In this document: in pieces, positions 5,643-60,503 of the stretch | Layout: every line of letters begins with the position of its first letter | Position numbering within the stretch: the first letter of the stretch is position 1 | Source of the DNA: Actinomycetota bacterium | GTDB lineage: Bacteria > Actinomycetota > Acidimicrobiia > Acidimicrobiales > Ilumatobacteraceae | DNA: 64,000 bases | NCBI GenBank assembly: GCA_009702045.1 | Contig: WLIV01000006.1 | Span: forward strand, 1 to 64,000 | Direction: 5' to 3' | Notes under the pieces: model-generated | The model's database searches: none | What the model saw: only the letters and a program-made list of their open reading frames with translations | Told to the model about the DNA's origin: nothing | Position numbers and translations under genes: made by a program

Positions 5643-7664
5643 ATGGTCAGTCGCTTCACCTATTCGCGCTGGGATGGCTCGCAGAAGGGATTCGATCTCG
5701 ATGCGGACACCCTGTTCGACTCGTTGACAGACGATCTGCTGTACCACGGCGATGTGAACGCTGCCCTGCGCAAGATGATGCAGCAGGGTATGAACGATCG
5801 CAACGGCGAACGCGTGCAGGGTCTGCGCGAGATGCTCGACAAATTGCGCAAGGAACGTCAGGAGCGCCTCGACAAGCACGACCTCGGCGGTGTCTACAAG
5901 GAGATCGCCGACGCGCTCGACGACATTGTCGATGAAGAGCGCCACGCAGTCGAGCAAGCAACTGCGGACGCCGAGCGGAGCGGCGACGAACGGCGCGCCC
6001 AGTCGGCCCGCGATGCCTCGGCCGAGCGCAACTTCCGCCTCGACATGCTGCCGAACGATCTGGCTGGCAAGGTGCGCGAACTGCAGTCCTACGACTTCGA
6101 GAGTGGCGAGGCGCAGCAGCGCTTCGAGGAGTTGATGGACAAACTGCGCCAGCAACTGATGCAGCAGGCCGTCGACCAGATGTCGTCCGCTATGCAGAAC
6201 ATGTCGCCCGAGGACATGCAGCGCACGAAGGACATGATGGCCGCGCTGAACGAGATGCTGGAGAAGCAGCAACGCGGCGAGGAGCCAGGCTTCGACGAGT
6301 TCATGCAGCAGTACGGCGACTTCTTCCCGGAGAACCCGCAGACGCTGGAAGAGTTGCTGGAGAACATGGCCCAGCGCATGGCGGCCATGCAGCAGATGAT
6401 GAACTCGATGTCGCCCGAGCAGCGCTCACAGCTGCAGCAACTCAGCGATCAGCTGATGGACGACATGGACCTGCGCTGGCAGATGGACCAACTGGGCCGC
6501 AACCTGCAGGGCATGTTCCCGCAGATGGGCTGGGGCGAGTCGCGCGAGTTCCGTGGAGAACAGGGCATGGGCATGGGCGAGGCGATGCAGCAGATGCAAG
6601 ACCTCAGCGATCTCGATCAGCTCGAGCAGTTGTTGCGCAACGCGAACAGCCCAGCGCAGTTGGCCGAGGCCGACATGGACCGTGTGCGCGACCTGATGGG
6701 CGACGACGCGGCCAAGTCGCTGGAACGTCTCGCCGAGCTCACCAAGATGCTCGAGGATGCGGGGCTGATCCAGAATAAGGACGGCAAGCTGGAACTCACG
6801 CCGAAGGGTCTACGCAAGATCGGGAACAACGCGCTGCGCGACCTGTTCGCCAAGCTGGCCAAGGACAAGTCGGGGCAGCACGCCTCGAACCGCATCGGGC
6901 AGGGTCACGAGCGCAACTACGACACCAAGCCGTACGAGTACGGCGACCCGTTCAACCTTGATCTCGAGCGCACCATCCGCAACGCGATCTCGCGCAACGG
7001 CACCGGCACCCCGGTGAAGTTGTCACCCGAAGACTTCGAGATCGAGCGCACCGAGCACCTCACCCGCTCGTCCACGGTGCTGATGCTCGACCTGTCGATG
7101 AGCATGCCGATGCGCGACAACTTCCTGCCGGCGAAGAAGGTCGCGATGGCGCTGCACTCGCTGATCACGTCGCAGTTCCCGCGCGACTTCATGGGCATCG
7201 TCGGTTTCAGCGAGACGGCCTACGTGCTGACCGCGCAGCAACTGCCCGAGGTCAGCTGGGACTTCGCCTACGGCACCAACATGCACCACGGGTTCACGCT
7301 GGCCCGTCAGATGCTGTCGCGCCAGACCGGCACGAAGCAGATCATCATGATCACCGACGGCGAACCGACGGCGCACATCACACCCGACGGGTATCCGTTC
7401 TTCAACTACCCGCCGGTGCAAGAGACGGTGGAGGCCACGCTGCGCGAAGTCGTACGCTGCACGCGCGACGGCATCCGGATCAACACGTTCATGCTCGACG
7501 CCGATCGTGGGCTGCAGCACTTCGTCGAACAGCTCACGTCCATCAACCGCGGCCGAGCCTTCTTCACGAACCACGAGAACCTCGGCGACTACGTGCTCGT
7601 CGACTTCATCGAGCACAAGAAGAGCCTGGCCAGAGGTAGCGGCCGCGGCCGCCGCGCCGGCTGA
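5643..7664 (+). CDS. VWA-domain protein, probable partner of the MoxR ATPase
   Basis: A 673-residue protein with a long helical, Met/Gln/Glu-rich middle part (about 90-400, coiled-coil-like, many MQQM runs) and a C-terminal von Willebrand A domain. The MIDAS residues are present: DLSMSM near 482, the Thr in GTNMHHG near 545 and TDGEP near 570. Proteins of this layout act with MoxR-type ATPases, where the VWA metal site contacts the client or ATPase ring. The MoxR gene ends 1.8 kb upstream on the same strand, with the cyclase unit in between on the other strand. The ATG at 5643 is the first start and fits the conserved N-terminus FTYSRWDG. Confidence 0.8.
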   Translation: MVSRFTYSRWDGSQKGFDLDADTLFDSLTDDLLYHGDVNAALRKMMQQGMNDRNGERVQGLREMLDKLRKERQERLDKHDLGGVYKEIADALDDIVDEERHAVEQATADAERSGDERRAQSARDASAERNFRLDMLPNDLAGKVRELQSYDFESGEAQQRFEELMDKLRQQLMQQAVDQMSSAMQNMSPEDMQRTKDMMAALNEMLEKQQRGEEPGFDEFMQQYGDFFPENPQTLEELLENMAQRMAAMQQMMNSMSPEQRSQLQQLSDQLMDDMDLRWQMDQLGRNLQGMFPQMGWGESREFRGEQGMGMGEAMQQMQDLSDLDQLEQLLRNANSPAQLAEADMDRVRDLMGDDAAKSLERLAELTKMLEDAGLIQNKDGKLELTPKGLRKIGNNALRDLFAKLAKDKSGQHASNRIGQGHERNYDTKPYEYGDPFNLDLERTIRNAISRNGTGTPVKLSPEDFEIERTEHLTRSSTVLMLDLSMSMPMRDNFLPAKKVAMALHSLITSQFPRDFMGIVGFSETAYVLTAQQLPEVSWDFAYGTNMHHGFTLARQMLSRQTGTKQIIMITDGEPTAHITPDGYPFFNYPPVQETVEATLREVVRCTRDGIRINTFMLDADRGLQHFVEQLTSINRGRAFFTNHENLGDYVLVDFIEHKKSLARGSGRGRRAG

Positions 7665-7670
7665 CCGCCA

Positions 7671-7772
7671 GGTGCGAGTGCGTCGTCCCCGGTGCGAGTG
7701 CCAGCCCGCCACCCCGAGTTGCACGTGTGCACCCGAGTGCATGGCGGCACCCGGGGTGCAACGTGGCACTCG
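7671..7772. repeat. Family A palindromic repeat, copy 1
   Basis: The copy begins 7 bp after the VWA gene stop. It holds ggtgcgagtgccag on the left, the centre gcggcacccggggtgcaac, and tggcactcg on the right, the same building blocks as the other four family A copies. It is the most diverged copy. A position directly after a stop codon fits a 3' hairpin. Confidence 0.7.
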
Positions 7773-7903
7773 AAAGACTTGGGAACCGAATGGGGGAGTG
7801 AGGGCTCTTTAGGGGTATGAGCGCCCACATCGACCCCCTGATCGCGGCACCCCCCGCCGCGGCCCGGCCGGTCGCCCCGCGCTCCGCCCGTCCCACCTCG
7901 CGC

Positions 7904-8020
7904 CACACCGCGTTTGAAGCCGAAACCGGGGCGGGTGCGGCCAAGCCTTCAAACGCTGCGCCCCGCCACACCGCGTTTGAAGCCGAAACCGCACAGGGTG
8001 CGGGCCAGCCTTCAAACGCG
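7904..8020. repeat. Tandem pair of 63-bp palindromic units before the sigma factor gene
   Basis: Two near-identical units begin with gcgtttgaagcc (7910 and 7973) and end with gccttcaaacgc (7945-7956 and 8008-8019). In each unit the two ends are inverted copies, so each could fold into a hairpin or form a protein site. The second unit ends 1 bp before the sigma factor ATG at 8021. The reading frame stays open through the array back to 7817, but the peptide it would give (RHTAFEAET twice) is not sigma-like, so I treat the array as non-coding. The remaining 7773-7903 shows nothing I recognise. Confidence 0.75.
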
Positions 8021-8491
8021 ATGGAAGTGGTGGGTGCGTCGGTCGTGTTCGTGGTGGAGGACGTGGAGGCCGTGTACCGGCGGATGTACCCCGGGCTGGT
8101 GCGGATGGCGTACCTGTTGGTCGACACGCAGGAGGCGGCCGAGGAGGCCGTGCAGGACGCGTTCGCCAAGGCGTACTCGAAGTGGTCGCGCGTGCAGACA
8201 CCCGAGGCGTACATGCGCACGTGTGTGATCAACGCCTGCCGCCGTGTGCAGCGCCGCCGGCGAATGGTGCGGCGCCAGCCAGACCCGTCAATCGAGCACG
8301 GCGAGATGTACGCCGACCACATCGCCGATGTCGTGCGCACCCTGCGTTCGCCGATGAAGGAAGCAGTCGTGCTGCGGTACTACCTGCAGCTGTCCGACCA
8401 AGAGATCGCGGAGGCCCTCGGCATCGCCGTCGGCACCGTCAAGTCCACGTTGCACCGTGCGCGTGCCCTGTTGAAGAAGGAGTTGTCATGA
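8021..8491 (+). CDS. ECF-type RNA polymerase sigma factor
   Basis: From the ATG at 8021 the product has 156 residues with both ECF sigma regions. Region 2 covers YRRMYPGLVRMAYLLVDTQEAAEEAVQDAF and region 4 covers LRSPMKEAVVLRYYLQLSDQEIAEALGIAVGTVKSTLHRA. It directs RNA polymerase to a small regulon and is normally held by the neighbouring anti-sigma factor. An in-frame ATG at 7817 exists but would add 68 residues made of the palindromic array, unlike any ECF factor. The downstream gene starts at the overlapping ATGA, so the two are translationally coupled. Confidence 0.88.
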   Translation: MEVVGASVVFVVEDVEAVYRRMYPGLVRMAYLLVDTQEAAEEAVQDAFAKAYSKWSRVQTPEAYMRTCVINACRRVQRRRRMVRRQPDPSIEHGEMYADHIADVVRTLRSPMKEAVVLRYYLQLSDQEIAEALGIAVGTVKSTLHRARALLKKELS

Positions 8492-9579
8492 GTGACGAAC
8501 TGGAGTCCATCCTCACCGAGAGCTTGCAGCAGCGGGCGCAACAGGTCGGCGTGCGCACGCACGGCTTCGGCGATGTGCGCCGCCGTGTGCGTCGCCACCG
8601 GCAGCGCCAGATGGCCGCCGGCCTGCTGCCCGCCGTCGCCGGCTTCGGCTTCATCGTCACCCGCCAGGTCGCTCACGACCCGCTGAGTCCCGGTGGTGCA
8701 GCCGGATGTGACACCCCGCAAACGACGACGAGCTGGCTGGACGGCACCCCAGGGTCGAGCACCGTGGCCCCACCCCCGTGGACCGGTGAACCTACGACGC
8801 TGCCGATGGATGCCCCTTACGTCACCGACGCCAAGGGCAGGGTGTACTACCTCGATGCCAACGGCAACGTGGTGCTCGACGCCGACGGTAACCCCGTGCC
8901 CGTGTCAGAGCCCGTCGGCACGACGACGACGTACTTCCGCCAGGAGGCGACCACCACAGAGGTCGACGGCTTCGGCAACCCGGTGCCGACGACCTACACG
9001 ACCGACGCCAATGGCTACCCCGCCACCACGATCGCGTACGACCCGCAGCGTGACGGCACCACGACCACCGTCGACCCTCGCGTCGAGTCCACCACCGGCA
9101 ACGTGATGGAGACCTCGACCACGATCGCGTGTGAGGTCCCGACCACTGATCCACTCGCCACGGGTCCGGCCGACACGACGCCCGCCGCAGTGGGTGACAG
9201 CACGACCTCCAGCCCGACGCTCACCGAGAACCAGGACTATTCGTTCGTCGTGTTCGTCAACGCCAGCACGGTCAATGATGCGGGGGCGCTGTACGCCGCA
9301 GGTTTGGCAGGTTCGAAGTACACGCCATTGCATGCACCAGTTTCGATGACGGTGCAGACCAGCTACGTGATGGCGGCCGTCGGCTCTGAGTCCGCAGCGC
9401 AATCGATCGCCCGCACGCTGGGTATCGCCGACGTGCGAACCGGCATCGACACGTCGGTGGTTTCCGGTAAGGACCTGTCCGGCATCACGGTCGTTGTCGT
9501 GATCGGCGAGAACCACGCGAGCGCTCTGACGTCTCCCACCACGACGGCACCCCAGTCGATTACCAGCAGCGCCGGCTGA
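8488..9579 (+). CDS. Membrane protein, probable anti-sigma factor with LytR_C-like extracellular domain
   Basis: The 363-residue product starts in the ATGA overlap with the sigma gene. Residues 1-40 are cytoplasmic and Arg-rich. A membrane segment lies at about 42-60 (MAAGLLPAVAGFGFIVTRQ). The outside part is Thr/Pro-rich with DANGN/DADGN/DANGY repeats. The C-terminus (about 250-345, from SFVVFVNASTVNDAGALYAAG to VVVVIGE) resembles the LytR C-terminal domain found on cell-envelope proteins. Position and topology argue for an anti-sigma factor, but I see no zinc (HxxxCxxC) anti-sigma motif, so that role is inferred from context only. Confidence 0.6.
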   Translation: MSDELESILTESLQQRAQQVGVRTHGFGDVRRRVRRHRQRQMAAGLLPAVAGFGFIVTRQVAHDPLSPGGAAGCDTPQTTTSWLDGTPGSSTVAPPPWTGEPTTLPMDAPYVTDAKGRVYYLDANGNVVLDADGNPVPVSEPVGTTTTYFRQEATTTEVDGFGNPVPTTYTTDANGYPATTIAYDPQRDGTTTTVDPRVESTTGNVMETSTTIACEVPTTDPLATGPADTTPAAVGDSTTSSPTLTENQDYSFVVFVNASTVNDAGALYAAGLAGSKYTPLHAPVSMTVQTSYVMAAVGSESAAQSIARTLGIADVRTGIDTSVVSGKDLSGITVVVVIGENHASALTSPTTTAPQSITSSAG

Positions 9580-9593
9580 CCCGCGGTCGCACT

Positions 9594-9700
9594 TTCGAGT
9601 GGCACATCGCGCCCATGGCGCGACGTGCCACTCGGGCGCGCCCGTGGCACTCGGGCCGGCGTCCACCCACTCGCACTGGTGGGCAGGCACTCGCACTTCG
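9594..9700. repeat. Family A palindromic repeat, copy 2
   Basis: The copy begins 15 bp after the anti-sigma gene stop. It contains ttcgagtggcac, the inverted centre cgcgcccatggcgcg, gtgccactcgggcg, gtggcactcgggccgg and ggcactcgcactt. It has the same CGAGTGCCA/TGGCACTCG words as the other copies but a different centre. Confidence 0.7.
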
Positions 9701-9927
9701 GAAGCGAGGGAAATCGCGGAGAATGGTCACGCTGAGCGCGACGGCCGCCACCCAAAATCGGAGGGTGGCGTCGATGCGCGCGGCTTCACGCGAAACACCC
9801 GCTCAGAACTATTCCGAAATCCCCCCTTGCGCGAAGGGGTTGTGGTAGGCGAGAATAACAACCATGTAATTACAGGGGTGTCGAGTGACACCCCAGCAAG
9901 GCCTGACGAGCAGGGGGGCCACATCGC
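9701..9927. promoter_or_regulatory. Leader of the first whiB gene with two hairpins
   Basis: This 227-bp stretch has no gene. Two hairpins are visible: cccctt/aagggg around 9824-9840 and ggggtgtc-gagt-gacacccc at 9875-9894. A GAGCAGGGGGG run about 10 bp before the whiB ATG may be the ribosome binding site. The hairpins lie close to the start and could affect translation or be operator sites. No known riboswitch is recognisable. Confidence 0.4.
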
Positions 9928-23774: not shown

Positions 23775-23900
23775 GGTGCGAGTGGGTGGACGCCGGCCCG
23801 AGTGCCAGGCGCCACCCGAGTGGGTGGTGGCACCCCGGGGTGCCACCACCCACTCGGGTGCGCACGTGGCACTCGCACCGGGGGTGTGGCACTCGCACCG
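23775..23900. repeat. Family A palindromic repeat, copy 3 (most complete, 48-bp perfect palindrome)
   Basis: Positions 23813-23860 form a perfect 48-bp palindrome with centre caccccggggtg and outer ends cacccgag and ctcgggtg. It is flanked by ggtgcgag and cgagtgcca on the left and tggcactcgcacc twice on the right. The copy ends 1 bp before the glnK stop codon at 23902, so it lies directly after glnK. The stem would be one of the strongest in the window. Confidence 0.85.
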
Positions 23901-23901
23901 G

Positions 23902-25513
<1,612 letters not shown>

Positions 25514-38573: not shown

Positions 38574-40007
38574 GTGCTCCTCGACGACGATCAGTGCTAC
38601 CGGGCGATCCAGAGCCGCGACGCTCGGTTCGACGGGTGGTTCGTGATGGCAGTACGTACGACCGGTATCTACTGTCGCCCGTCGTGCCCGGCGATCACGC
38701 CGAAGCGACACAACGTCGAGTTCTTCAAGGCGGCGGCCACTGCGCAGGCCCACGCGTACCGAGCGTGTAAACGGTGCCGCCCCGATGCATCGCCCGGCTC
38801 GCCGGAATGGAGCATGCGCGCCGACCTCGTCGGCAGGGCGATGCGGTTGATCGCCGATGGACTTGTTGATCGTGAGGGCGTCGGCGCGCTCGCATCCCGC
38901 CTCGGGTACAGCGAGCGTCAGGTGCATCGAGTGCTCGTCGCTGAGGTCGGCTCCAGCCCCCTCGCACTTGCGCGTGCCCAGCGTGCGCAGACGGCGCGCA
39001 TCCTGATCGAGACGACCAGAATGCCGATCACGGATGTCGCGTTCGCTGCTGGCTTCCAGAGCGTGCGGCAGTTCAACGACACCGTGCGCAATGTGTACGC
39101 CGCGTCGCCTTCGCAGCTGCGCTCGGCCAACGCGCCCGCAGGTGCGAGCGGTCAGTTGACCGTTCGTCTCGCATGCCGCGAGCCCTTCGACGGGGGCCAT
39201 CTGCTCGCCTTCCTGGCGGCGCGCGCTGTGCCAGGTGTGGAGTCGGTGGACGGCACCACGTATCGCCGCTCGTTGCGCCTCGCCCACGGTGCAGGGGTCG
39301 TGTCCATCGACCTCGCCGGGCCGACCGTGACGTGTGCGCTCACGCTCGACGACCTCGCCGATGTTCAGGCGGCTGTGCAGCGCACCCGGCGGCTCCTCGA
39401 CCTCGATTGCGATCCGGTGTCCGTTCGCGACCAACTTGGCAGTGATCCACTACTCGGTCCGCTGGTTGCTGCTCGGCCCGGTCTCCGTGCGCCGGGGCAT
39501 CCCGACGGCACGGAACTGCTGGTGCGCGCGATCTTGGGCCAGCAGGTCAGTGTTGCCGGTGCTCGTACTCTCGCTCGGCGCATCGTCGAGCAGCACGGTG
39601 AACCGCTCGGGGAGGTGGTGGGTGACGTGACGCACTTGTTCCCGGATGCCGCGAGCATCGCGGCACTTCCACCGGACGGGGCATGCACGCCACGCGCTCG
39701 CTGGGCGGCCTTGGTGGAGGCGTGTGCGCACGTCGCCGACGGTCGCATCGTGCTCGACGCGGGCAGCGACCGAGCGGAGGCAGTCGACGCGCTACGGCGT
39801 GTGAAGGGAATCGGACCCTGGACCGCTGGGTATGTCGCGATGCGTGCGCTCGGTGATCCCGATGTGTTCCTGCCCACCGATCTTGGCGTGCGACACGCAC
39901 TCGCTGCGTTGGGCGCCGACACGTCGGAGAAGAGTGTCACCGCATTGGCTGAGCGTTGGCGACCGTGGCGTTCGTATGCGCTGCACCATCTGTGGGCAAG
40001 CTTGTGA
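38574..40007 (+). CDS. alkA: DNA-3-methyladenine glycosylase II with Ada-type N-terminal domain
   Basis: A 477-residue fusion. Residues 1-80 are the zinc/methyl-transfer domain of Ada (GIYCRPSCPA and CKRCRPD give the four cysteines), about 85-180 an AraC-type HTH (VGALASRLGYSERQVHRVL), and about 190-475 an AlkA glycosylase with the HhH motif LRRVKGIGPWTAGYVAM and the catalytic Asp in FLPTDLGV near 435. It should sense methyl damage, bind DNA and excise alkylated bases. GTG 38574 is the only start that keeps the full Ada domain. The methyltransferase gene follows after 11 bp. Confidence 0.92.
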   Translation: MLLDDDQCYRAIQSRDARFDGWFVMAVRTTGIYCRPSCPAITPKRHNVEFFKAAATAQAHAYRACKRCRPDASPGSPEWSMRADLVGRAMRLIADGLVDREGVGALASRLGYSERQVHRVLVAEVGSSPLALARAQRAQTARILIETTRMPITDVAFAAGFQSVRQFNDTVRNVYAASPSQLRSANAPAGASGQLTVRLACREPFDGGHLLAFLAARAVPGVESVDGTTYRRSLRLAHGAGVVSIDLAGPTVTCALTLDDLADVQAAVQRTRRLLDLDCDPVSVRDQLGSDPLLGPLVAARPGLRAPGHPDGTELLVRAILGQQVSVAGARTLARRIVEQHGEPLGEVVGDVTHLFPDAASIAALPPDGACTPRARWAALVEACAHVADGRIVLDAGSDRAEAVDALRRVKGIGPWTAGYVAMRALGDPDVFLPTDLGVRHALAALGADTSEKSVTALAERWRPWRSYALHHLWASL

Positions 40008-40018
40008 AGGAGAACTCG

Positions 40019-40564
40019 ATGCACCGAACCACCAACATCCCGCCGCTGGGCGACCACTCGACGCTCGTGCGCACATCAATGTCGACGCCCGTCGGCGAGC
40101 TCACGCTCATCGCCAGCCAACGCGGTCTGCGAGCAGTGTTGTGGCACGGCGAGTTGCCGGCGGACAGCGATATCGCTGCGTCGGCGGGGAAGGGTCGTGG
40201 CGCCGCGATCCTGTCCGAGGCTGCGCTGCAGCTCGACGAGTACTTCGCGGGGAAGCGCACCGAGTTCGATCTGCCACTCGATCCGGTCGGCACCGAGTTT
40301 CAAGCGGCAGCGTGGGCTGAACTTCGCAAGATCCCGTTCGGCGAGACGATCTCCTACGGCGAGCAGGCGCGTCGCCTTGGTGATGTGAACAAGTCACGCG
40401 CCGTAGGCGCCGCGAACGGTCGCAACCCGATCAGCATCATCGTCCCGTGTCACCGGGTCATCGGCGCGAACGGCGCGCTCACCGGCTTCGCCGCCGGCGT
40501 TGATGTGAAGCAGTGGCTATTACGCCACGAACAGCACGGCGCTGGTCAACTGTCACTCATCTGA
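40019..40564 (+). CDS. ogt: Methylated-DNA--protein-cysteine methyltransferase
   Basis: A 181-residue suicide repair protein with the active-site motif IIVPCHRVIG (Cys near 143) and the HTH-like region FGETISYGEQARRLG. It removes methyl from O6-methylguanine. ATG 40019 follows AAGGAG. Together with the upstream AlkA-Ada fusion it rebuilds the functions of Ada, AlkA and Ogt in two genes. Confidence 0.93.
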   Translation: MHRTTNIPPLGDHSTLVRTSMSTPVGELTLIASQRGLRAVLWHGELPADSDIAASAGKGRGAAILSEAALQLDEYFAGKRTEFDLPLDPVGTEFQAAAWAELRKIPFGETISYGEQARRLGDVNKSRAVGAANGRNPISIIVPCHRVIGANGALTGFAAGVDVKQWLLRHEQHGAGQLSLI

Positions 40565-40566
40565 CC

Positions 40567-40649
40567 TTTCGAGTGGGTCGTGACACCCTGGGTGTCGCTC
40601 CCCACTCGGGTGCGTTCCTGGCACTCGGGCCGGCGCGCTGGCACTCGGA
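40567..40649. repeat. Family A palindromic repeat, copy 4
   Basis: The copy fills the whole gap between the convergent stops of ogt (40564) and the next gene (40650). It has the inner palindrome cgacacccagggtgtc-like centre (gtgacaccctgggtgtcgc), gagtgggtcg/ccccactcggg arms, and two tggcactcgg words on the right. A shared terminator role fits. Confidence 0.75.
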
Positions 40650-41252
40650 TCAGCGGTGGAGGGCCTTTTGCTGCTGGGAGCGGCGAGCGGCGGAATCCGC
40701 CTGCTTCTTCTCCTTCGCGGCCTTGCGCTTGGCCTTCGTCTCGTCGTCCGCGGTGCGGGCGGGCAGCACCTCGATATCGACCTTCGTGGCCGGCGGGAGG
40801 GCGAGCACTTCATCGTGCTTGAGTACATCGATGAGCATCGCCGAGGCGGTGGCCTCGCCAGCGATCGACGACGCGAGCATCATTCGCACGGTGCCGAGAC
40901 CGAACTCCTCGATGAGCGCAGGAGCGATCTCCTGGAGGTTGTCGTGCGACGGGTTGTCGCTGTTGTCGCCGAGCAACTCGATGCACTTCGCGAGGCACGG
41001 ATCGGTGGCCAATGTGGCCACTTGCTCGAGGCCGCCGTTCACGCGACCGCGTGCGGCGGTGGCGCGCATGGCCAGCGTGCGGGCGGCGACGTCGGTGAAA
41101 CCGCCTTCCTTCGCGCCGCAGACTTCGTCGATCGCCTCGCGGTGGTCGTCGGGCAGCGTTGCCACGAGGGCAGCGAGTTCGTCGTCGGTCAGTGCGTTGA
41201 ACGCACGATCCAGCAACGTGAGGGCGTGCAGGCGGTCTGTGATCTTGCTCAT
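40650..41252 (-). CDS. Helical protein of unknown function
   Basis: A 200-residue protein I do not recognise. Residues 1-150 look all-helical and acidic, with a Cys pair (EVCGAKEGG, and DPCLAKCIELLG). The last 45 residues are Lys/Ala/Gln-rich (DDETKAKRKAAKEKKQADSAARR), a charged tail that could bind nucleic acid. There are no membrane segments. It stands between repair genes (ogt upstream on the other strand, mfd downstream on the same strand). The gap of 41 bp to mfd is compatible with a separate transcript. Confidence 0.6.
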   Translation of the reverse strand: MSKITDRLHALTLLDRAFNALTDDELAALVATLPDDHREAIDEVCGAKEGGFTDVAARTLAMRATAARGRVNGGLEQVATLATDPCLAKCIELLGDNSDNPSHDNLQEIAPALIEEFGLGTVRMMLASSIAGEATASAMLIDVLKHDEVLALPPATKVDIEVLPARTADDETKAKRKAAKEKKQADSAARRSQQQKALHR

Positions 41253-58724: not shown

Positions 58725-59573
58725 ATGACAGCCAAGGATACGCCCGCCCGTTCGCAGAAGGGCAAGCGCATTGGGTTGAATGGACGGGTGAGCGAGTTCG
58801 ACGACGCAACCCAGGTGGCCCCCGATGGTTCGGCCACGATCATCGACGGCTGGGACATCAGCGGAAACGCGAACGGTGGCTACTTGATGGCGATGGCCGG
58901 CCGGGCGATGCGCAACGCCAGCGGGCGGCCCGACCCCATCTCGGTGACGGCGCACTACCTGGCGCCCGGTAAGCCCGGGCCAGTACAGATCGACTCGACG
59001 GTCGTGAAGTCCGGTCGGCGCTTCGCCACCGTCTCGGCGCAGATGCACGCGGGTGGCAAACCGATGATGCAACTGGTCGGCGCGTTCGGCGATCTTGCCG
59101 ATGTGAAGTCCTACGAGCACAACGCGTCCGGTCCGCCCGACCTACCGCCGTTCGAGGAGTGTTGGCCGCGGCATCGTGAGCAGGGCGAGGCGGACGTCGC
59201 GCTCAGCGACCGTATCGATGTGCGTCTCGACCCAGCGCTCCTGGGCTGGTCTCGTGGCGAACGTTCGGGCGATGCGGTGATGTCTGGCTGGTTCGCGTTC
59301 CGTGACGGTCGCCCGCTCGACACGCTCGCGTTGCTGATGGTGTGCGATGTGTTCCCGCCGGCGGTGTTCAACCTCGATATGCCCCCCGGGTGGGTGCCCA
59401 CCGTCGAGTACACGGTGCACGTTCGCGCCGTGCCAGCACCGGGACCATTGATGTGCACGTTCCGCACCCATTTCGTTGGCAGTGGGTTCCTCAACGAGGA
59501 CGGCGAGGTGTGGGACAGCACCGGTCGTCTGGTGGCCCAGAGCCGCCAACTCGGCCTCACGCCCCTGCTCTAA
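58725..59573 (+). CDS. Acyl-CoA thioesterase, double hot-dog type
   Basis: A 282-residue protein with two hot-dog halves (about 25-125 and 185-280). GNANGGYLMAMAGRAM is the helix-capping segment of the first half, and VTAHYLAPGKPGPVQIDSTVVKSGRRFATVSAQMH is the beta region typical of TesB/YbgC-like thioesterases. It likely cleaves fatty acyl-CoA. The gene is divergent from metG, 74 bp apart. Confidence 0.85.
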   Translation: MTAKDTPARSQKGKRIGLNGRVSEFDDATQVAPDGSATIIDGWDISGNANGGYLMAMAGRAMRNASGRPDPISVTAHYLAPGKPGPVQIDSTVVKSGRRFATVSAQMHAGGKPMMQLVGAFGDLADVKSYEHNASGPPDLPPFEECWPRHREQGEADVALSDRIDVRLDPALLGWSRGERSGDAVMSGWFAFRDGRPLDTLALLMVCDVFPPAVFNLDMPPGWVPTVEYTVHVRAVPAPGPLMCTFRTHFVGSGFLNEDGEVWDSTGRLVAQSRQLGLTPLL

Positions 59574-59581
59574 CCCCCGCA

Positions 59582-59704
59582 GGTGCGAGTGCCACGGCCC
59601 CGGTGCGAGTGCCAGCGGCGCGCCCGAGTGGCTGGTGGCACCCAGGGTGCCACCACCCACTCGGGTGGCGCGTGGCACTCGCACCGGTGGCCTGGCACTC
59701 GCAC
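59582..59704. repeat. Family A palindromic repeat, copy 5
   Basis: The copy lies between the convergent stops of the thioesterase (59573) and the HAD gene (59715). The core gctggtggcaccc-a-gggtgccaccaccc is nearly palindromic, with cgcccgagtgg and ccactcgggtggcg around it. Outer words ggtgcgagtgcca (left, twice) and tggcactcgcac (right, twice) are inverted. It closely matches copy 3. Confidence 0.85.
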
Positions 59705-59714
59705 GATGAAGGGG

Positions 59715-60503
59715 TTAGCGCGAGCGGGCCCAGCGGACGCCGCCGGCGAAGGAACCGACGGCCAACCCGGCCGCACCCACCGCCTGCGTCGTGCGGCGGA
59801 TGACGGCCTTGGTGCGCTTGGAGAACACCACCACCGGCCACCCGCGCTCACCGGCGATTCGCTCGAGTTTGGCGTCGGGGTTGACGGCCACGGGGTGTCC
59901 GACGGCCTCCAGCATCGGCATGTCGCTGGCCGAATCGCTGTACGCCCAACACTGGTCGAGGTGGAGCCCCTCCCAGCGTGCCAGTTCCTCGATCGCTTCC
60001 ACTTTGCCCTGGCCGTAGCAGAACGGGCCGTCGAGTTCACCCGTGTAGGTGCCGTCGACGATGCGACTGCGAGTGCCGATTCCGGCCGACATGCCGAGTG
60101 CCTTGGCGAGCGGTTCGACGAGTTCGATCGGCGACGCGGAGACGATGTACGTGGCGCGGCCGGCGTGGCGATGCTGGTCGAGGAGGCGCTTGGCCTCGGG
60201 CCGGATGCGTTCCATCAGCTTGGGCACGATCTCGGCGTTGAGCGCAACGAGGTCCTCAAGGCGCACACCCTTGACCGCTCCCAGGATCCGGTCGCGTACG
60301 CCGGTGGACGTGTCGTCGCTCGCTCCGGCAACGACGAATGCCAACGCGCTGGCCGCATCGCGCACGAACTGGTGCGTCGGGACAAGTTTGTTGCGCCAGG
60401 CGGCGATGCCGAGGACGAACGCGCTCGAACCACTGATGAGCGTGCGGTCGAGATCGAAGAATGCTGCGCTCGGACCGCCGGAGTAGATCGGTGTGTCGGT
60501 CAT
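59715..60503 (-). CDS. HAD-superfamily (IB) phosphatase
   Basis: A 262-residue HAD-IB hydrolase. FFDLDRTLISGSSAF is motif I with the nucleophile Asp and its partner, SASPIELVEPLA is motif II, and YSDSASDMPMLEAVGHPVAVNPD is motif III/IV. Relatives are phosphoserine phosphatase-like or act on lipid phosphates. The last 40 residues form a hydrophobic helix plus Arg-rich end, suggesting loose membrane contact. Its start overlaps the rsmI stop (ATGA). Confidence 0.85.
   Translation of the reverse strand: MTDTPIYSGGPSAAFFDLDRTLISGSSAFVLGIAAWRNKLVPTHQFVRDAASALAFVVAGASDDTSTGVRDRILGAVKGVRLEDLVALNAEIVPKLMERIRPEAKRLLDQHRHAGRATYIVSASPIELVEPLAKALGMSAGIGTRSRIVDGTYTGELDGPFCYGQGKVEAIEELARWEGLHLDQCWAYSDSASDMPMLEAVGHPVAVNPDAKLERIAGERGWPVVVFSKRTKAVIRRTTQAVGAAGLAVGSFAGGVRWARSR

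Follow-up and report, generated by a model that had tools for sequence, protein, structure and literature searches.

Palindromic repeat arrays at gene 3' ends are paired with HTH-nuclease genes in Actinomycetota: candidate nuclease-dependent REP-like elements

The window analysed here is a stretch of 64,000 nucleotides (64 kb) that opens contig WLIV01000006.1 of an actinobacterial genome (G000 below), and it contains five palindromic repeats, each immediately beside a stop codon. This raises the question of what kind of element such repeats are, and what has placed them so regularly behind genes.

Results

Five arrays with a common core lie next to stop codons

A preliminary description of the window, made from its letters, had listed five palindromes, all of which were present on reanalysis. 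Parsed from the first to the last conserved hexamer, their spans run from 7675–7772 to 59586–59701:

Copy 1, 7675–7772, + strand: left arm of three units (20, 20 and 19 bp); core at 7734–7772; right arm with no units, ending CACTCG followed by AAAG
Copy 2, 9596–9693, - strand: core at 9596–9634; units in the right arm only (19, 20 and 20 bp); left side reading CTTT, then CGAGTG
Copy 3, 23779–23895, no strand assigned: two units per arm; 40-bp core at 23817–23856
Copy 4, 40570–40647, - strand: core at 40570–40608; two units in the right arm; CTTT at the left
Copy 5, 59586–59701, no strand assigned: two units per arm; core at 59625–59663

Although these elements had been described as long palindromes, it is the core of about 39 bp that is palindromic, the remainder consisting of zero to six direct-repeat units per arm that are often unpaired. 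The core has the form CGAGTG-N27-CACTCG, is 39 bp long (rarely 38 or 40) and is made up of two 19-bp halves placed head-to-head. The units have the consensus CGAGTGCCASNGCCCCGGTG and run outward as direct repeats of the CGAGTGCCA... type; the core-adjacent unit is usually 18–19 bp and the outer units are 20 bp. Where an arm has no units, CACTCG at the end of the core is usually followed directly by AAAG, and unit-free ends read AAAG, GAAG, GGTG or GATG. The constant word is CGAGTG/CACTCG, after which the next four to five bases alternate between a CCAC(G) and a GGTG(G) type. The paired words CGAGTGCCA ... TGGCACTCG, first thought to be common to all copies, are found in most, but the left arm of copies 2 and 4 is the core alone (CTTT, then CGAGTG). 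The perfect 48-bp palindrome reported for copy 3 is correct and consists of the 40-bp core extended by 4 bp at either end.

CGAGTGCCA occurs 16 times in the window by comparison with 1.16 expected, a count not reached in any of 100 shuffles, and clusters with at least four CGAGTG/CACTCG hexamers are restricted to the five sites. A DNA uptake sequence was considered and rejected, as 12 of the 16 words lie inside the five arrays, leaving four single words versus 1.16 expected.

All five copies are close to a stop codon, as first described. Copy 1 starts 10 bp past the stop of a VWA-domain gene (5643–7664, +), copy 2 lies 16 bp past that of gene 8488–9579 (+) and copy 3 is 6 bp from that of a P-II gene (23902–24240, -). 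Copies 4 and 5 occupy the two convergent gaps noted earlier, between genes 39992–40564 (+) and 40650–41252 (-), and between genes 58725–59573 (+) and 59715–60503 (-), with the nearest facing stop at 2 and 12 bp respectively.

The elements form a genome-wide family at gene 3' ends

The preliminary description had postulated a genome-wide family at gene 3' ends and proposed a search of the whole genome with a model built on the copies; many copies, placed non-randomly at stops, were indeed recovered. A covariance model built from 18 cores gave about 31 loci in genome G000 (3.65 Mb), and pattern searches agree; the survey combined pattern, covariance-model and regional searches, with covariance scoring covering 150 of about 7000 candidates. 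Three contigs begin or end inside elements (G000:C11:1-161, G000:C34:1-103 and G063:C114:1); assemblies are therefore interrupted at the elements and the copy numbers are minimum values, most of the genomes compared being MAGs broken at these repeats.

Thirty loci were analysed with about 3 kb of context per side and our own gene caller. Eleven lie in convergent gaps, 17 in tandem gaps and one at a contig end; a single element lies in a divergent gap, although divergent gaps make up one third of intergenic bases. The distance to the facing stop is at most 20 bp for 27 of the 30, by comparison with 15.4% expected at random intergenic positions (binomial p 3e-19).

Such placement, 2–16 bp past stops in the window and with convergent gaps favoured, is what a function in host RNA would lead one to expect, with 3'-end hairpins that block 3' exonucleases or aid (Rho-linked) bidirectional termination, and with the nuclease locus described below merely carrying them. 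The predicted folds of the window copies, at -44 to -110 kcal/mol, and the strong covariation of the core, in which 11 pairs show two-sided changes, point the same way; arm-to-arm copying could be an alternative source of the covariation. However, about half of the cells in core columns 8–10 are unpaired as a result of mixed CCAC-type and GGTG-type half-sites, and many outer units are without a counterpart on the opposite arm, so pairing is not strictly maintained. The classical form of the terminator role proposed in the preliminary description did not hold up: in only one stop-facing transcript do the 15 nt that follow the element include at least four T, and a terminator scan of 7500–9900, around copies 1 and 2, returned nothing. 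A search of the window against Rfam 15 gave only a tRNA above the gathering score. Further, there are only about 31 copies in the whole genome, and REPs are placed likewise although they are thought to be mobile (PMC3733652). We consider it unlikely that a host RNA function explains the family; a side role in RNA stability or mRNA protection is possible.

Positions are largely fixed between close relatives

Elements of the same geometry were found in nine of 15 genus genomes. Their sequence drifts, to CGAGTGGGTACTCGCACCC in G075 and to CGAGTCGGGACTCGCACCC with 19-bp units in G087 and G109; 3'-end placement is less clean in the latter two, for which gene prediction is weak (gene starts, and in places the gene calls themselves, are approximate, above all in these genomes). 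CGAGTGCCA arrays with an 18- or 19-bp period were also seen in other genera of the family (loci L063 and L130 (WLDE01); genomes G018, G024, G037 and G053).

Nearly all copies in G063 lie at junctions orthologous to those of G000 (about 97% amino acid identity), with differing numbers of units. Copy 1 has three units in G000 versus five in G063, the orthologue of copy 4 has three, copy 5 has an orthologous copy, and copy 2 is also present, there at a contig end. Movement of the elements is rare, given this positional match. Few element junctions are common to G000 and G075, most positions being different. In G049 the copy 1 junction is an empty site, where the stop runs into the common flank and about 10 bp replace about 115; by comparison with G000 this is a discrete, insertion-type presence/absence polymorphism. 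No clean target-site duplication was seen at this single empty site, the flanks of which are ambiguous.

The adjacent region is itself variable. The interval from the VWA gene to whiB lacks the sigma-factor gene and gene 8488–9579 (window 7665–9900) in G010, G075 and G087 but has them in G049 and G131, and this two-gene indel is bracketed by two mirror-image elements in G000 and probably in G063. The stretch 7817–9579 between the mirror-image copies was examined as a candidate gene cassette and rejected; it holds an ordinary sigma factor and its neighbour, and is found in G049 without the first element.

A conserved nuclease gene is bracketed by mirror-image elements

In five species (G000, G063, G075, G087 and G109) a gene for a protein of about 310 amino acids lies between two mirror-image elements, both of which turn their unit-free side toward it. 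This gene, bracketed by CGAGTG elements, is located outside the window. The N-terminus of the protein is AbiEi-like (winged-helix/HTH; padloc AbiEi E about 1e-5) and its C-terminus has profile resemblance to a PD-(D/E)XK / MTES_1575-DUF559-type nuclease. Among 25 homologues the domain profiles were MTES_1575 in 20, AbiEi_4 in 16 and DUF559 in three, while NCBIfam gave no match for the protein; in the PDB the profile matched PvuRts1I (E=0.003) and, at a weak level, 3r3p, a mobile-intron endonuclease (E 0.2). Residues E206, D238, E249, D251, H256, D265 and R268 are invariant in the 25 proteins and are putative catalytic residues; the conserved pattern is E, D, E-x-D, H, D, R, with the EDxHD-type 3r3p reached at E 0.2 only.

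Between close species the nuclease has a dN/dS of 0.03–0.14, that is, it is under purifying selection; it is often at a conserved locus and looks vertically inherited, and there were no matches on plasmids or phages in the records searched. Decaying copies still lie beside repeats, one with a frameshift (G150:C49:2539-3466), which has elements on both sides, and one with an in-frame TGA (G000:C45:96791-97672).

Of the roles guessed at in the preliminary description, a protein-binding site comes closest, with this HTH-nuclease as the candidate protein. AbiEi antitoxins bind inverted repeats, and the AbiEi-like N-terminus could accordingly belong to an AbiEi-type regulator or nuclease, in defence or addiction, with the palindromes as its operators and the dispersed copies forming a regulon or titrating the protein. 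The elements, however, lie behind stops and hardly ever in divergent (promoter) gaps, they are found on both sides of the gene rather than at its promoter alone, and their core sequences vary between copies far beyond what is usual for operators. We regard the operator reading as distinctly unlikely.

Nuclease subfamily and flanking repeat match across genomes

A repeat common to both flanks (score of at least 15) was found at 18 of 19 testable nuclease loci in the genus, by comparison with one of 58 control genes. Outside the genus, in other genera, families and classes, 16 of 24 full-flank nuclease loci reached this score and eight had no common flank repeats; the score also counts non-palindromic similarity and is, outside the genus, a screen rather than proof.

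The sequence of the flanking repeat tracks the nuclease subfamily. Where a genome has no CGAGTG elements, the palindromes flanking its nucleases are of the GGGGGTTTC...GAAACCCCC, CGAGGGTTYC..., AAGTYGGCG... or GGGCGCGA... type, and the four nuclease homologues of G000 adjoin four palindrome types: A (CGAGTG), a C-variant (GTCGGCG), D (GGGCGCGA) and E (GTTTGAAGG). Dispersed GGGGGTTTC cores number 29 in G010, 26 in G098 and three in G164, with none in twelve other genomes. Cores of the AAGTYGGCG type, nearly all exactly 45 bp, number 39 in G033, 25 in G063, 22 in G141, eight in G000 and six in G158, by comparison with zero to two elsewhere, and all five of these rich genomes carry the matching nuclease clade. 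Reversed-pattern controls for the dispersed repeats gave no matches. In the complete genome of a member of another genus (G019) the nuclease-side repeat has 21 copies (none in the control), two of which bracket the nuclease gene; 13 of the 15 copies examined adjoin stop codons. Dispersal of the flanking repeats tested genome-wide is thus confined, or very nearly so, to genomes with the matching nuclease subfamily. The nuclease locus is syntenic between G109/G131 and G010/G098/G164 though the repeats are unrelated, and these sequences suggest that nuclease and repeat changed together; nuclease and repeats share a phylogeny, and genome counts are not independent.

This regular bracketing of nuclease genes by unrelated repeat sequences is left unexplained by a host RNA function. 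It also bears on whether the elements are an ordinary MITE or REP family moved by a known transposase (RAYT or DDE) elsewhere in the genome, which they resemble in size, palindromy, copy number and extragenic position. The repeat-bracketed gene is a nuclease homologue every time, the Y1 (PF01797) RAYT transposase, the class searched for, was found in none of the 15 genus genomes, with control genomes positive, and the empty site showed no clear target-site duplication; a known transposase is, in our view, very improbable.

Two side observations concern the other families. The family E palindrome (CCGCGTTTGAAGSC...GCCTTCAAACGC) occurs twice in the window, at 7901–7956 and 7964–8019, 63 bp (21 codons) apart and in-frame within the sigma-70 gene 7817–8491, the G049 orthologue of which is without it. 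These in-gene copies resemble in-gene Rickettsia palindromic elements, and the repeat also flanks the fourth, stop-containing nuclease homologue of G000 (L364). A family C element of G141 (L295:853–897) lies at the junction that holds family A in G000 and G063 (L166, L220); possibly one 3' end can serve as a hot spot used by different families.

Discussion

We propose that a nuclease-dependent, REP-like element underlies the family, with the bracketed nuclease gene as its autonomous locus and the palindromes as non-autonomous copies, and consider this reading probable. We infer that the nuclease binds, cuts and mobilises its palindrome. Its N-terminal part would recognise the CGAGTG units or the core, and the enzyme would then cut the element, probably once the palindrome has been extruded into a cruciform or hairpin; the element might then be copied, expanded or converted through repair or strand transfer. 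Behind stop codons new copies may be tolerated, or insertion may be guided there.

The nearest functional analogue is the REP/RAYT system. REP, REPIN and BIME elements with RAYT ('REPtrons') are likewise short intergenic palindromes adjoining gene 3' ends, in convergent as well as tandem gaps. Between convergent genes REPs are at most 20 bp from a 3' end, and between tandem genes they keep close to that of the upstream gene (PMC3733652). Two inverted REPs invariably enclose the RAYT gene (PMC2817692), and in both systems the enzyme gene lies between two inverted copies of a repeat that is enzyme-specific (PMC2817692, PMC3733652). Two tested features nevertheless set the present elements apart from this class, as the enzyme is an HTH plus PD-(D/E)XK-type nuclease and not a Y1 HUH transposase, and the palindrome ends carry no GTAG/CGTC tag. 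They also differ in having long arms of 19–20 bp direct-repeat units and tens, not hundreds, of copies. The earlier statement that they are longer than REP/BIME applies to the whole array, whereas the core itself is about REP-sized. CGTC-tagged REPs, for which no dedicated enzyme is known (PMC3733652), and Rickettsia palindromic elements (RPE) are also palindromes without Y1 transposase, sometimes in-frame in genes, but differ from the present families in sequence and tag.

Homing endonuclease genes of the EDxHD / PD-(D/E)XK kind (I-Bth0305I) offer a second comparison, with domain resemblance of borderline strength (3r3p, E 0.2) and a nuclease gene that has a copy of a long candidate recognition site on either side. 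Unlike these, the nucleases described here are free-standing among chromosomal genes, with no intron or intein seen, and non-coding copies of the site are dispersed, with no match in the phage records searched. In domain make-up the nuclease corresponds to AbiEi antitoxins (type IV TA) and to actinobacterial AbiEi-DUF559/MTES_1575 proteins. Known AbiE systems are bicistronic with AbiEii and regulate their own promoter (PMC3985639), whereas the nuclease genes here have palindromes on either side.

The pairing of enzyme and palindrome suggests a dispersed genetic element of a kind not yet described. In the open-access PMC literature we found no earlier account that associates Vsr-like, DUF559 or AbiEi nucleases with palindromes, and to our knowledge the nuclease–palindrome pairing has not been described before. 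There is about an even chance, in our judgement, that these loci constitute a separate, Actinomycetota-wide class of selfish element, in which each HTH-nuclease gene would be bracketed by, and would mobilise, its own palindromic array; enzyme specificity and repeat would co-evolve, and the class would have originated independently of REP/RAYT, with a restriction- or homing-like nuclease in place of the transposase.

RAYT transposase is the only dedicated enzyme class that we found described for palindromic extragenic repeats, and some REP families have none (PMC3733652). The present analysis links several palindrome families, unrelated to one another, with a widespread actinobacterial protein family of the AbiEi-DUF559/MTES_1575 type that has so far been without a function. 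Nuclease-driven spread or maintenance of chromosomal palindromes becomes testable with these matched enzyme–site pairs of differing specificity; and for many uncharacterised nucleases a recognition site can be predicted, namely the palindrome adjoining the gene.
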